From Algoriphagus sp. (lineage in GTDB: Bacteria; Bacteroidota; Bacteroidia; Cytophagales; Cyclobacteriaceae): a stretch of DNA of 64,000 nucleotides. How positions within the stretch are numbered: the first letter of the stretch is position 1; each line of letters opens with the position of its first letter. Location of the stretch: positions 1-64,000 of the forward strand of contig JANQWS010000053.1 in the NCBI GenBank assembly GCA_030729785.1, given 5' to 3'. The notes below the pieces were generated by a model. That model made no database searches. It was not told the origin of the DNA and saw only the letters and a program-made list of their open reading frames with translations. Made by a program: the position numbers and the translations under genes. Positions 9,175 through 15,684 of the stretch are shown in pieces.

Positions 9175-10479
9175 ATGGAAACCATACATATTTTACAATT
9201 TGGTACAGGAAATTTTCTTCGTGGATTTATTGAACCTCTAATCGAGGAAGTAAATCAAAAAGGGAAATCACTACAGGTATACCTTGTCCAAAGTACACAA
9301 GGCAGTACATTGGAAGCGCTACGAAGCCAAAATTTTCAGTATTCCTTGCACCTGACCGGTATTGACCAAGGGGAGGTAATGGAACAATCCCAAAAAATAA
9401 CCTGCATCAAGGATGGACTTTCTTTACCCCAGGAGTATGACAAATTTCTTTCATTAGCCCTTCAGCCTGAATTGAAATGGGTCATTTCAAACGTCACGGA
9501 AGCTGGTATCGCTTGGCAAAATGAAGGCTCAAAAAACCAAAATGCAGTGTCCTTTGGAGGACGATTAACACAGTGGTTACATTGGAGATATACCAATGCT
9601 CCAAGTCTAATGACCACAATTCTTCCTTGTGAACTAGTCCCTAGCAACGGTAAATTTCTGGAAGAAATCATTCGAAAACATGCGCTTGCTTGGAACCTTG
9701 GTACTGAATTTTTGGCTTGGCTCACTACCCATTGCCGATTTTTCAACACTCTTGTAGATCGTATCGTGCCTGGATTTCCAAGTAATTTCAAAGAAATACA
9801 AACCCCAAACGCGGTGCAGGCAGAACCTTACCTCTTTTGGGGTATTGAAGGAACTCTCACAGATGCGGAAGAAATCCCCTTCGCTAACTGCAAAGGGGTG
9901 GTGGTGACCGAATCACTACTTCCTTATGCACAACGAAAAATCAGTATTTTGAATGGACTCCATACCTACCTCGCAGCAGTAGGAATGTTAAAAGGAATTC
10001 AAACTGTTCAGGAATATGTACAGGACTACAGTAGATTAATAGAAATAAATCAATTACTCGAGCAGGAGATTTTCCCCTACTTAAATCAACCCTTGGAATC
10101 TCTTCAAGAATACGGTTTTGAGATTATTGAACGATTCAAAAATCCGTTCCTAGCCCATGCCCTTTTGTCAATATCATTGCAATCAATTTCTAAATTTAGA
10201 AGTCGGCTGCTCCCTATTTGCCTACACTACAGCGAGAAAAACGGGGAATTACCACCAAAAATATCCAAGGGATTGGTCGCCTTACTGCTTTGTCATTTGC
10301 GCTTTTTTGATCAAATGAAGGATTCTGAAGAAACGAAAAAGTATTTTGAGAATCTCCGAAAAAGTACCGATTCTGAACTAAAGAAAATCATCTGCGCAGG
10401 AAAAGAATTGTATGACTTGATGGATGAGTCATCTTTGACTTCGGCGTACGACGAACTAATGAAGGAGCTATCTTCCTAA
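9175..10479 (+). CDS. uxaB: Tagaturonate reductase (mannitol dehydrogenase family)
   Basis: LQFGTGNFLRGFIEPLI N-terminus, KISILNGLHTYLAAVG motif; locus context. Confidence 0.9.
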   Translation: METIHILQFGTGNFLRGFIEPLIEEVNQKGKSLQVYLVQSTQGSTLEALRSQNFQYSLHLTGIDQGEVMEQSQKITCIKDGLSLPQEYDKFLSLALQPELKWVISNVTEAGIAWQNEGSKNQNAVSFGGRLTQWLHWRYTNAPSLMTTILPCELVPSNGKFLEEIIRKHALAWNLGTEFLAWLTTHCRFFNTLVDRIVPGFPSNFKEIQTPNAVQAEPYLFWGIEGTLTDAEEIPFANCKGVVVTESLLPYAQRKISILNGLHTYLAAVGMLKGIQTVQEYVQDYSRLIEINQLLEQEIFPYLNQPLESLQEYGFEIIERFKNPFLAHALLSISLQSISKFRSRLLPICLHYSEKNGELPPKISKGLVALLLCHLRFFDQMKDSEETKKYFENLRKSTDSELKKIICAGKELYDLMDESSLTSAYDELMKELSS

Positions 10480-11870
10480 TCAGCCACAAATCCCAAACCC
10501 GCTGCAAACCTTGCTTTCGCATAGGCGATGTAAAGTTTGGCTGATAAATCATTTAGAGTGAGCCGGGAATCAAAAGCAGCTACTTCTCGGGCATTAACCA
10601 AAAACAAGCTACTTTCTCCTATCTCAAAACGTCGCGTCTCTCCAGTAAGTAACGCTTCTAAACTTTTAACATTTTCTGCGAGCGTGCGCACCTGTTGATT
10701 CAATACCTTCCAAGAGTTGAGTTCAGTCTCTAACTTCGTTCTGAGCTGCTGCTCTTTCAAATTTCTACCTGTTTGCTTGATCTCAATCTTAGCTTTGGTA
10801 CTGCCCAAGTCTCCACGAGTTTTGCGCAATAATAAAGGTGTATAGACAGACACTCCCCATTTGTAATTATTTTCAAATAAGGGTGAAAGCTGAGCATCAG
10901 CAACAGTTTCAGTTAGGAAGTTATACTTAAGCTTGACTACTGGAAGTAATTCTTGCGTTTTTAAACGCTTTTCCACATTCAAACTTGCCAAATCAAAATC
11001 AGTGAGAAGCAAATCAGGATGTCTTCCTACTTGGGTTCGTAAGTCTTCCACCTCCGGAGTTACACTCAAAAATTGAGAAAGTGGTTGAGGAATTACGTCC
11101 TCATCCAAAAGCATAGGTGAACGTGAATCATCCCACAGAAAGGTATTGAGCACTTGCGTATTCTCAAAAAAGGTATTCTCCGCAAGTTGCAATCTATATT
11201 GGCGGTTGAGCAATTGGGATAGAGCTTCTACAGTATCAATGGCCGCCTGATCTCCAAGTTCATAGCTCCTCCTAACTCCTTCAAATCGGATTTTTGCTAG
11301 CTTGACTCCTTCTTCCAGCACCAATTTATTTTCATAGGCTGCAGCCCATTTCCAGTACGCACTTGTTGCCTCAAGATTCAATTCATTTCGAAATTTAAGG
11401 CGTTCTACCTCCGTCGCTTGCTCATAGAGTTGCGCTTTTTGAAGTGTAGCACGTCTATCGTCCAGGATCAATCCCTGACCTAGGTTAACAGCAGCTCCAG
11501 CGGAAAGCAATCCGTTACTAGGGACCGCACTCTCCGAATTGAGATACGCCCCGTTATTCTGTTCAAAAGTTCCCGTCAACTCTACACCCATCCAAGTGGG
11601 CACCAACACTCCTGCCTCACTTTTTTCAAAATAAGTAGACTGCTTAAATTCTTTTTTATCCAAGTTACCAAATAGCATGGGATCAAATCCACCTCGGGCT
11701 TTACGCACTTCCATTTGTCCAAGGCGAAGGTTGAGGTCCGCTTGAATAGCAATGGGATGGTACGCTTCTACCCATATCATGTACTCTTCAAAGCTCAATT
11801 CTTGCCTTTCTTGAGCCAAAAGTGAACCTGAAAAAACCACACCGAAAAGAACTAGTAATCCTGTTTTCAT
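10476..11870 (-). CDS. TolC family outer membrane protein
   Basis: Signal peptide, long helical TolC repeats (RFEGVRRSYELGDQAAIDTVEALSQL); directly downstream of HlyD gene. Confidence 0.88.
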   Translation of the reverse strand: MKTGLLVLFGVVFSGSLLAQERQELSFEEYMIWVEAYHPIAIQADLNLRLGQMEVRKARGGFDPMLFGNLDKKEFKQSTYFEKSEAGVLVPTWMGVELTGTFEQNNGAYLNSESAVPSNGLLSAGAAVNLGQGLILDDRRATLQKAQLYEQATEVERLKFRNELNLEATSAYWKWAAAYENKLVLEEGVKLAKIRFEGVRRSYELGDQAAIDTVEALSQLLNRQYRLQLAENTFFENTQVLNTFLWDDSRSPMLLDEDVIPQPLSQFLSVTPEVEDLRTQVGRHPDLLLTDFDLASLNVEKRLKTQELLPVVKLKYNFLTETVADAQLSPLFENNYKWGVSVYTPLLLRKTRGDLGSTKAKIEIKQTGRNLKEQQLRTKLETELNSWKVLNQQVRTLAENVKSLEALLTGETRRFEIGESSLFLVNAREVAAFDSRLTLNDLSAKLYIAYAKARFAAGLGFVAD

Positions 11871-13222
11871 TTTTTGGAGGATGCAGTTTTATCTTTTTCT
11901 TCTTGAGAATAATAATCTGCCGGGAAACCATTGAGTTGTCGCCAAAGCTCATACCAAACAGGTACATCATTGAATAAGGCAATTCCATCTGCACCAGAAC
12001 CCATACGCAGCAAATCAGGCCATCCCTCTTCTTCAGGGTCTTCGGTAACCAGCACACGGTACTGGTTGGTGGGTCCTGCAAATTGATCTATCGCAATAAC
12101 TACCCCCCCAAATGTTCCATTTGATAATTGTGGCCAGCCAGAGAAAACAATTGCTGGCCAGCCATCAAAGATAAATCGAACTTTATTTCCAGGCTTAATC
12201 AAGGGTAAATCCACCGGTTGAACAAACATTTCTACAGCCAATTCGGCATTTGCTGGCACTATATTGACAATCTCTGCCCCTTCTTTAACCGTCTCACCGA
12301 TACCCACTTGAATTGCTTTGGCAATAAATCCATTTTGAGGTGCTAAAATATAGCGGTATTCAGAGCGTTGAGCATAGTTGGAATATTGATTTTCAAGTTT
12401 GGCTACAGTAGCCTCTGCATCAAATTGAGAGGACATCGCTGTAAACATTTCTGACTTTGCTTTGGCAACCTTATCCTTGAATTCATTATCAATGGCACCT
12501 AAGTCTATTCTTGCAGTTATAAACTCATTTTTGCTACTCAGAAACTTGTTTTCTGTTCCAATTAGCTTGGCTTGAACTTCCTGAAATTTCAACCTTCTCC
12601 CTTCTAGGGATACCACTGATATCAACCCCTCTTTGAAAAGTTGCTCTGCTCTTTCCAGTTGATATTTACCAATATCAAAGTTAACCTTCGCTTGTACTAG
12701 TTCCATGCTATCCGACTGCACTTTCAAAGAGGCTATGGTCAAGTAATTTTGCGCCTGCTGGAGTTTAAGGATATTATTTTGTTCAAGAGCTTCAATTTGA
12801 TTTTCCAATGCCCCCACCTTATCTCCATACGATAGTGCAGCACGAGTTTTCACATCTACCTGCTGTTGCGTTCGTGGAAGAAGCAAGGAATCAAAGTATT
12901 CGTCCTTGATTTCTGAAATTCTTAAAATAGTATCTCCAGCGGCTACATAATCTCCTTCTGCGACGTACCACTTTTCAATCCGTCCTGCAATGATCGAATG
13001 AATGGTCTGCGGTCTTTGGTCAGGACGAAGCGCAGTCACAAATCCTTTGGAACGAATATTTTGGGTCCAGGGTAAAAATAAGAGGAGAAAAAATACGGCA
13101 ATTACCCAACGAAGAATTTTTAACCTTCGTTTACTTTCTTTTTTCGGCAGCGTGATTTCCAAGCTTTTGGCACCGCTGAAAGACGCTACATCTTTGATGG
13201 TGTTATTTGAAATATTCAACAT
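11867..13222 (-). CDS. HlyD-family membrane fusion protein
   Basis: Single N-terminal TM, biotinyl-lipoyl-like IAGRIEKWYVAEGDYVAAGDTILRI, coiled coil, PQNGFIAKAIQVGIGETVKEG. Confidence 0.92.
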   Translation of the reverse strand: MLNISNNTIKDVASFSGAKSLEITLPKKESKRRLKILRWVIAVFFLLLFLPWTQNIRSKGFVTALRPDQRPQTIHSIIAGRIEKWYVAEGDYVAAGDTILRISEIKDEYFDSLLLPRTQQQVDVKTRAALSYGDKVGALENQIEALEQNNILKLQQAQNYLTIASLKVQSDSMELVQAKVNFDIGKYQLERAEQLFKEGLISVVSLEGRRLKFQEVQAKLIGTENKFLSSKNEFITARIDLGAIDNEFKDKVAKAKSEMFTAMSSQFDAEATVAKLENQYSNYAQRSEYRYILAPQNGFIAKAIQVGIGETVKEGAEIVNIVPANAELAVEMFVQPVDLPLIKPGNKVRFIFDGWPAIVFSGWPQLSNGTFGGVVIAIDQFAGPTNQYRVLVTEDPEEEGWPDLLRMGSGADGIALFNDVPVWYELWRQLNGFPADYYSQEEKDKTASSKK

Positions 13223-13228
13223 GGCCTT

Positions 13229-14932
13229 TTATTTTTTGTAAGTAAGGTAATCGTCGTACTTTCCTTTGAAAACTAGTTTGCCTTGATCCATAAGAATGAT
13301 TTCATCGGCAAGCTGCTGTACGTTTTTTTCGTCCGAAACAAGCAGCAAAGTCCAAGGGCCTTTCATGACATAATCCATCACCTTTGCCTTAACGATTGAA
13401 TCTACATCATTAAAGATGTCCTCCATAATGAGGGCTTTGGGAGAACCTACTAATCCTCTTGCAAGAAGAATTTGGTGAGCAATGGTCTTCGATAGCCCTT
13501 TTCCTTCCGGCTGCAATTCGGTTTCCAAACCGAGTGGCAATTGGTAGACAAAATCTTTCAAGCCAACAAGGGCGATAATTTCTTCCAATTGTGATTTTAC
13601 ATAATCTCTTCCCATGCAGATATTTTCCAGTAGAGTCCCATGAAAAATTTGTTGGAGAGTTAAAAAATCCCCAACCATCCCTCGGAATTTTTCAAGATTA
13701 ATGTAATCCAAAGACAAGTCATTGACACATACTTTTCCCTCATACTGCTCGTAAAGACCAGAAAACAAAGCCATCATCGCACTTTTACCACTGCCACTTT
13801 TTCCAGTAACTACCACTTTTTGGCCAGGATTAATGGTAAGGGTTACATCCGATAGAATGGGAGATCGTGCATCTTGCGGTTGAAAAACCACTTTTTCCAT
13901 GCTAAATTTTAATCCTTCACTAGTAGGATCAACCACCTTTTCATGTGGCTCATGGTGTTCCAAATCAAGGTCCATCAGCGTGCCCAATTTATCCACTGAA
14001 ACCAAGGTATCGTACACCGTCTCTAAGGAAAGAATCAATTTTTCTACTGAATTGACCACCAATACAATAATCACCTCAGCAGCTACAAATTGACCAATCG
14101 AAATTTGATCGTTGATCAGAAGTAAACTACCTGCTAGGAGCAAACTGGTAACGATCAAAACTTTAAATCCGACCATCACCTTGTATTGGAAGATTAGCAC
14201 ATTAAAATGTTGGGACCTAAACTCAATGTATTTCTGGATTAGTTTATCTGCTCTTAAAATGGGAAGAGACGTATTTCCAACTAGTTTGAAGGAGTTTAAA
14301 GTCCTACCGACTTCCTCCAACCAAAAAGCAGTTTTGTATTTGTAGGAGGATTCTTTGATGGCTGTTTCCATTCCCTTTGGAGCACTGAAATAAAATATGA
14401 CTCCTAAAATTGCAAATAGGCCTAATCCAAACAAAATAAAGGTAGGATGGTAGAAAGAAAGCAAAAGAAGCCCAAAAACTACTTGAAGAAATGCTGCTGA
14501 AAAGTCGATTAAGATCTTGGAAAGCCCTTTTTGAAGGCTGACCGTATCGAAGAAACGATTGACCATTTCAGGAGCATATTTTCCGTGAAGGATTTCTGTC
14601 TTTATCCTCGGTAATCGATAGGCAATGGAAAGTCCAGATTTGGAGAAAATTCGCTGCTGAAATTTTTCCATGATTTGCAATTGTGAGATTTGAAGGAAGC
14701 CTCCAAAAATCACCCCTGCAGCCACAATAATGACTAGGATTATCCAAGAAGTAGTAATTCTACCCCCCAAAATAAAGTTCAGAATCGCTTGAATCCCCAA
14801 TGGGAGAGACAAGGTAATTAAGCCATTTAGGACTGCATAGAAATAAATGGCATATACCTGATTTTTCTCTTCCTTAAGAATGTTGAAAAATCGCTTAGTG
14901 GGCGTTAAACCGAATTCGGGCTGCATCATCAC
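13229..14932 (-). CDS. ABC transporter, fused TM and ATP-binding domains, degenerate NBD
   Basis: Six-TM-type region followed by an NBD with canonical Walker A GKSGSGKS but atypical other motifs (LSKTI in place of LSGGQ; ALIMED; LLLVSD). Confidence 0.93.
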   Translation of the reverse strand: MMMQPEFGLTPTKRFFNILKEEKNQVYAIYFYAVLNGLITLSLPLGIQAILNFILGGRITTSWIILVIIVAAGVIFGGFLQISQLQIMEKFQQRIFSKSGLSIAYRLPRIKTEILHGKYAPEMVNRFFDTVSLQKGLSKILIDFSAAFLQVVFGLLLLSFYHPTFILFGLGLFAILGVIFYFSAPKGMETAIKESSYKYKTAFWLEEVGRTLNSFKLVGNTSLPILRADKLIQKYIEFRSQHFNVLIFQYKVMVGFKVLIVTSLLLAGSLLLINDQISIGQFVAAEVIIVLVVNSVEKLILSLETVYDTLVSVDKLGTLMDLDLEHHEPHEKVVDPTSEGLKFSMEKVVFQPQDARSPILSDVTLTINPGQKVVVTGKSGSGKSAMMALFSGLYEQYEGKVCVNDLSLDYINLEKFRGMVGDFLTLQQIFHGTLLENICMGRDYVKSQLEEIIALVGLKDFVYQLPLGLETELQPEGKGLSKTIAHQILLARGLVGSPKALIMEDIFNDVDSIVKAKVMDYVMKGPWTLLLVSDEKNVQQLADEIILMDQGKLVFKGKYDDYLTYKK

Positions 14933-15684
14933 TGAATAGCTTTGGTCACGAGTTGATAAAAGAATTGAAAGCGGTTGGAACTATCCGGTCCAGCATCCAA
15001 CATTCCGGGCAAATGTTGAGAATTAAAATTTTGTAGTAGACTTGATTCAAGAATGGTAAATACCAAGGTTTTTGGAAAACAGTAGTTTGGATTAATTTCT
15101 GAAATGATAGAAGTCACTCTATCGCCAAACTTATACACTTGGGAGAAGATGCCAGATTCGTGTTCTAAATCAACCTCCTTGGTTAAAAACCCCTTAATAG
15201 ATTCATTAATGACTAAATTCTGTAAAATTTTAGGGTCCAAATACTCATTTTCAGTATAAATAGGACCTTCTACTAGCAGTTTAATAGCAAGTGTCAATCG
15301 ATCCTGAGGATTCGTTTGATTTGCTGTTCCAAATACCAGATTGTGTTCTAACCAAGCCCAATACCAAGCACTCAGGTACAAAAGCAACTTGTGTTTATTT
15401 TCAAAATATCGATAAATGGCAGCTTCTGTGCTCCCAATTTGTGCGCCTAATTTTTTGAATGTGAAATGCTCCATTCCCAACTCTTGAATTAAGCGCGCTC
15501 CTTCCTGAACTATCAAAATCCCTAGTTCTGAGCTAAAAGGATCCTTAAGAAACAAGCTACTATTGACCTCAACTCTAATCTTCTTAACTATTGAATCCAT
15601 GGTTATTTGTCGAATCTGAAGAGATAACGAAAGATAAGAAGCAAAAGTTTGCTTATCAATCATTTTTGTTAGTATTAATAACAA
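14929..15684 (-). CDS. TetR family transcriptional regulator
   Basis: HTH-like FTFKKLGAQIGSTEAAIYRYFENKHKLLLYL; start codon uncertain (MDSIVKK at 15600 is an alternative). Confidence 0.85.
   Translation of the reverse strand: MLLILTKMIDKQTFASYLSLSLQIRQITMDSIVKKIRVEVNSSLFLKDPFSSELGILIVQEGARLIQELGMEHFTFKKLGAQIGSTEAAIYRYFENKHKLLLYLSAWYWAWLEHNLVFGTANQTNPQDRLTLAIKLLVEGPIYTENEYLDPKILQNLVINESIKGFLTKEVDLEHESGIFSQVYKFGDRVTSIISEINPNYCFPKTLVFTILESSLLQNFNSQHLPGMLDAGPDSSNRFQFFYQLVTKAIQ

Follow-up and report, generated by a model that had tools for sequence, protein, structure and literature searches.

The locus and its operon

The window, a stretch of 64,000 nucleotides from an Algoriphagus genome, encodes on its minus strand an ABC exporter half-transporter with a catalytically degenerate ATPase domain (13229..14932; 567 aa, GTG start), an assignment drawn from Pfam, alignment, AlphaFold and Foldseek. 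The gene of a HlyD/EmrA-type periplasmic adaptor (11867..13222, minus, 451 aa; PF13437 HlyD_3 at 49.8 bits, TIGR01843 at 72.9 bits and under its cut-off) begins 6 bases past the ABC stop codon and is overlapped by 4 bases by the gene of a TolC-type outer-membrane channel (10476..11870, minus, 464 aa; PF02321 OEP, 113 bits). On the other side, the gene of a TetR-family regulator (14929..15684, minus; PF00440 TetR_N, 33.8 bits) overlaps the ABC start by 4 bases; its listed TTG start is probably about 28 codons early, most relatives having 223-228 aa. Pfam thus upholds the TetR, HlyD and TolC neighbours named in the original prediction, and the predicted parts list is that of a type 1 secretion or tripartite efflux system. 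No second ABC exporter was found in this operon or in the loci of the relatives.

The 567-aa protein has a transmembrane domain (TMD) at about residues 10-330 (13943..14905, minus), delimited by conservation by group, the AlphaFold helices and the Pfam match to ABC_membrane at residues 29-295 (40.8 bits, cut-off 28), followed by a degenerate nucleotide-binding domain (NBD) at about residues 340-562 (13247..13915, minus), delimited by Pfam and alignment, with an ABC_tran match of 58.5 bits (gathering cut-off 25). Its AlphaFold model is that of an ABC exporter (pLDDT 78), like our other models a monomer whose membrane domain is of modest confidence, and the best Foldseek match is PCAT1, with HlyB/D also among the best. 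The protein falls far under every curated HlyB/LssB-type family cut-off in NCBIfam, including those of its best match, TIGR03375 LssB (172.8 bits against 693.1), and of TIGR01846 (141.6 against 725.6).

Loss of the ATPase motifs

We read the motif columns from an alignment of the protein with other family members and with five canonical exporters encoded in the same genome. It shows that, at the level of sequence, the ATPase domain of the window protein lacks every group of hydrolysis residues except Walker A. Both Pfam domains of an ABC exporter and an intact Walker A (GKSGSGKS, within about residues 376-389; 13766..13807, minus) are present. The remaining motifs are absent: Thr stands at the position of the Q-loop Gln425, LSKTI at that of LSGGQ (residues 480-484), Glu-Asp ('ED', or 'EN' in most of the genus) at those of the Walker B Asp504 and catalytic Glu505, and Asp at that of the H-loop His534. 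The A-loop Tyr also seems absent ('VVFQPQD'), less certainly so, as the alignment is one residue short there. The same columns hold Q, S(G/V)GQ, D(E/D) and H in 5/5 canonical exporters of this genome, which rules out the explanation that canonical motifs are present at an offset. The motif state, predicted earlier from a hand alignment, was therefore correctly read.

Family distribution

Single orthologs occur in nearly every Algoriphagus genome searched, at 63-98% identity, and in many other families of the order at about 37-44%. Since orthologs at both distances have the state in common, the motif state of the window protein is, by homology, not a matter of chance, and in a first alignment all orthologs with an ATPase domain have the same losses. 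Family members were found in 328 of 391 genomes in an order-wide search and in 76 of 297 in a phylum-wide profile search; they include Belliella, Cyclobacterium, Roseivirga, Polaribacter, Olleya, Salegentibacter and Tenacibaculum. The gene order ABC-HlyD-TolC is conserved, and the TetR gene adjoins it in Algoriphagus and many other genera. As judged from these alignments, the substitutions mark out a family of Bacteroidota orthologs whose operon, (TetR)-ABC-HlyD-TolC, is conserved. This answers the earlier question of whether homologs carry the same substitutions and bears out the proposal of a distinct exporter branch. A search of open-access literature gave no description of the family.

Motif loss comes in degrees. 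Among the 190 NBD-bearing members, the Gly, Lys and Ser/Thr of Walker A are retained in 188, 184 and 171, respectively. The Q-loop Gln is retained in 5, the Ser, Gly, Gly and Gln of the signature in 106, 8, 21 and 7, the Walker B Asp and Glu in 37 and 36, and the H-loop His in 16. The combination of Walker B Asp-Glu and the His occurs mainly in a single clade outside the class of the window, a clade that lacks the Q-loop Gln and mostly LSGGQ. Walker A is also gone in two members (L193, L235), and its Lys is replaced in a third (L236). Distant sphingomonad homologs lack Walker A as well, and the Sphingobium plasmid pHAL16 has an ABC-adaptor-TolC operon. Distant homologs on alphaproteobacterial plasmids without Walker A nonetheless have the helix-6 motif GQLVAAEL (L276:3908-5614, L279:3653-5624, L277:3962-5396).

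Other features vary between relatives. Many have an N-terminal extension of 150-190 aa (L173:6839-7393, L039:6640-7125, L049:4811-5374 and other members of 720-832 aa), which is absent from the window protein and has no Pfam or PDB sequence match. A few copies are damaged or shortened (L054:4676-6375, L243:3477-7481, L244:4187-7702, L231:3616-5208), the lesions being a split frame, an interruption of about 2 kb and frameshifts; the NBD of L231 is truncated and lacks Walker B and the H-loop. At 107 loci, the genes upstream of the operon are for the most part unrelated, and none stands out as a substrate. A carbonic anhydrase lies near the operon in several lineages (L170:987-1742, L190:4901-5545, L189:7338-7988, L226:431-1093, L088:115-765), and DabA, involved in inorganic carbon uptake, lies just upstream on a Sphingobium plasmid (L276:1312-3864) and in one member of the class of the window (G281:C1:791680-793902). 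A link to inorganic carbon is suggestive yet patchy, and we rejected it as a general one.

A clade without the NBD

The family contains 41 genes for the membrane domain only (family codes f11, f13, f18 and f22), which encode 333-374 aa and end at the domain boundary. HlyD and TolC follow directly in 25/25 loci examined, and the stop codon often overlaps the start of hlyD by 8 bases. In the five NBD-less proteins scanned with Pfam, ABC_membrane is the only match and SbmA_BacA gives none; no remnant of an NBD was found at the junction in five loci tested. We searched 21 genomes with an NBD-less gene, using the NBD of the nearest NBD-bearing relative as query, and found no family-type NBD: the best matches lie inside full-length ordinary exporters and score about 70-95 bits, compared with 527 and 130 bits in two genomes possessing the family NBD. 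A cognate NBD split off from the gene and encoded elsewhere is thus rejected, for the five loci tested as for the 21 genomes. An assembly artefact is rejected too, as several of these genes are on single-contig genomes, none has internal stops, and the junction is the same in 25 loci.

In a tree built on the TMD columns only, the NBD-less genes form one clade (SH-aLRT 99) nested among degenerate members. Canonical exporters do not fix the root as an outgroup because of their very long branches; the direction from canonical to degenerate is taken from the fact that canonical motifs are ancestral in ABC proteins generally. The single nested clade points to one probable deletion of the NBD, at a time when its motifs had already been lost; wide inheritance or spread of the gene would have followed. 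The AlphaFold model of an NBD-less member has six long helices and matches the TMDs of ABC exporters (TmrAB, PCAT1, HlyB; TM-score up to 0.80). A conserved stretch of loop 1, at the place where an NBD would dock, is kept in the NBD-less members L165-L168, L053 and L205-L224.

Constraint and charged residues in the membrane domain

The window protein and its relatives in other families have an identity of 0.476 over the TMD and 0.309 over the NBD, whereas the same comparison for a canonical exporter of this genome gives 0.562 and 0.674. Positions at least 90% identical number 80/315 in the TMD against 14/222 in the NBD. In the NBD-less clade, the median dN/dS is ~0.21 over 41 non-saturated pairs, and within the genus dN/dS is about 0.13 for the Walker A segment against about 0.38 for the segment from Walker B to the H-loop; these values are rough, most pairs being saturated at synonymous sites and the two segments being short. 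Constraint has thus moved to the TMD. The strong constraint on this domain, together with the conserved family and operon, agrees with the original view that the gene is selected rather than decaying; conserved orthologs and operon rule out a recent decay of the window gene.

Degenerate and NBD-less members show almost no variation at several charged residues of the TMD (E89, E286, E297, K298, K135 and K198). The clade keeping the Walker B Glu and the His has these residues for the most part, and the five canonical exporters lack them. Residue 286 is acidic in 174/174 degenerate, 25/25 NBD-less and 15/16 other members, and residue 297 has the same counts; residue 298 is basic in 174/174 degenerate and 25/25 NBD-less members. 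None of the five canonical exporters of this genome (0/5) is acidic at position 89, 286 or 297. The models would place E286 and E297-K298 within the bilayer part of helix 6. The presence of these charges in the clade that retains Walker B Glu and His as well means that their origin does not coincide with the loss of the NBD, and they may be structural.

How the exporter may be powered

The best explanation of these observations, to which we give a probability of roughly 55%, is an inner-membrane exporter of the ABC fold that has been freed from ATP hydrolysis and is probably coupled to an ion gradient, in a TetR-HlyD-TolC tripartite system. A homodimer of the six-helix membrane domain would carry out transport without hydrolysing ATP. 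The inferred energy source is a proton or sodium gradient, which would act on conserved charges, chiefly E286 and E297-K298 of helix 6, and so drive alternating access; the substrate would then be handed to the HlyD-TolC duct. Control by TetR suggests that this substrate is a small molecule or a peptide. What is left of the NBD in the window protein would be a vestige with a structural or ATP-sensing role, and the ATP independence of this NBD-bearing protein would be carried over by homology from the NBD-less clade.

What speaks most strongly against power from ATP hydrolysis is the existence of this clade taken with the architecture of ABC dimers, where each ATP site is made of the Walker A, Walker B, Gln and His of one subunit and the LSGGQ of the other. 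The window protein has neither side intact, Walker B/His or signature, so a canonical partner cannot rebuild a consensus site. Several points count against the ATP-free reading: the charged residues may be structural, the Walker A Lys is kept in most NBD-bearing members, and the loop-1 region where an NBD would dock is conserved in the NBD-less clade, whereas SbmA lost its coupling helices.

A first alternative, doubtful in our view, is that transport is gated by ATP without being powered by its hydrolysis, Walker A binding the nucleotide and binding and release gating an ion-coupled or facilitated path in the NBD-bearing members. The retention of the Walker A residues across these members while the hydrolysis residues have gone, and the lower dN/dS of this segment in the genus, speak for such gating; the Lys in particular, kept in 184/190, suggests that nucleotide binding still matters and may regulate members such as that of the window. 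Against it, scattered members and the sphingomonad homologs miss Walker A, the NBD-less clade dispenses with it altogether, and the signature that sandwiches ATP in the dimer is gone. The original prediction of a slow or regulatory ATPase is weakened for the family by the nested clade without NBD, while members like that of the window may still bind ATP as a regulatory signal.

A second alternative is a hetero-oligomer, in which a canonical half-transporter encoded elsewhere, or a stand-alone NBD, hydrolyses ATP in trans. The draft genome does encode five canonical ABC exporters, and the loop-1 residues conserved in NBD-less members could be read in the same direction. We consider it improbable even so, because both composite sites of any heterodimer would be non-consensus, the operon offers no ABC partner, and the 21 NBD-less genomes have no family-type NBD; the unlinked canonical partner proposed earlier would therefore bring no rescue of catalysis. 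Even less plausible is a slow or unconventional ATPase that uses displaced acidic residues: there are such residues near the Walker B position (ED, EN, DD, EE), but they vary freely between relatives, the signature, the Q-loop and the His are lost as well, and one clade has deleted the domain. The few broken copies (L054, L243, L244) and the truncated NBD of L231 give next to no credence to the view that the window gene is a pseudogene or the decaying copy of a normal exporter, because the gene is intact in nearly all relatives and carries the same substitutions in orthologs, the operon is kept, and the TMD is under strong purifying selection.

Whether ABC exporters do physiological work without ATP hydrolysis is debated, mostly on the basis of the engineered LmrA-MD and MsbA-MD and of SbmA. 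In living Bacteroidota, nature has apparently made the same truncation, and close relatives represent every stage of the loss: catalytic NBD residues kept, a dead NBD, an NBD without P-loop, and no NBD. Operons at each stage could be expressed and tested side by side. Many Bacteroidota proteins annotated as 'ABC transporter ATP-binding protein' probably cannot hydrolyse ATP.

Comparison with known systems

The window system resembles several known ones and differs from each. First, type 1 secretion and peptide-export ABC proteins (HlyB, LssB/LapB, PCAT1, ComA) also combine ABC_membrane with ABC_tran and have HlyD and TolC in the operon; unlike them, the window protein has lost the catalytic motifs, has no peptidase domain and is under the family cut-offs. 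Second, heterodimers with one degenerate site (TM287/288, TmrAB, MsRv1273c/72c) have the same fold and a partial loss of ATP-site residues. Their losses are divided over two subunits, so that one consensus site survives, whereas the window protein has lost both sides and has no linked partner gene. Third, EmrAB-TolC joins a HlyD/EmrA-type adaptor and TolC, as here, to a gradient-driven inner-membrane pump; that pump is an MFS protein, whereas the inner-membrane protein encoded in the window has the ABC exporter fold. Fourth, MsbA-MD and LmrA-MD, engineered to lack their NBDs, still transport ethidium under a proton gradient, and E314 in helix 6 of LmrA is needed for the dependence on the pH gradient (PMC4979069, PMC2704374). 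They are laboratory truncations of working ATPases, whereas the loss of the NBD in this family is natural.

The NBD-less clade also has a parallel in the proton-driven peptide transporters SbmA/BacA (SLiPT), which have an ABC-exporter-like TMD without NBD and with conserved glutamates, as E89, E286 and E297 are invariant in the TMD of our family. SbmA is related to ABC TMDs, has no NBD, is driven by protons and carries a glutamate ladder; a complete ABC transporter whose NBD was lost is its proposed origin, and the ladder is partly present in NBD-bearing kin (PMC13316013). The window protein itself retains a degenerate NBD, the absence of the domain being confined to the related clade. Unlike SbmA/BacA, the NBD-less members have six helices in the model, no TM0a/b and a preserved loop-1 region, and the family has HlyD and TolC partners and surviving NBD-degenerate intermediates. 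In our best reading, the family parallels SbmA independently, within a HlyD-TolC pump. We would lay even odds that nature has here, for a second time, turned an ABC exporter into a secondary transporter driven by a gradient, set within such a pump and with the intermediates still alive. The system is best called an NBD-degenerate variant of the tripartite ABC exporters, one branch of which is naturally NBD-less.
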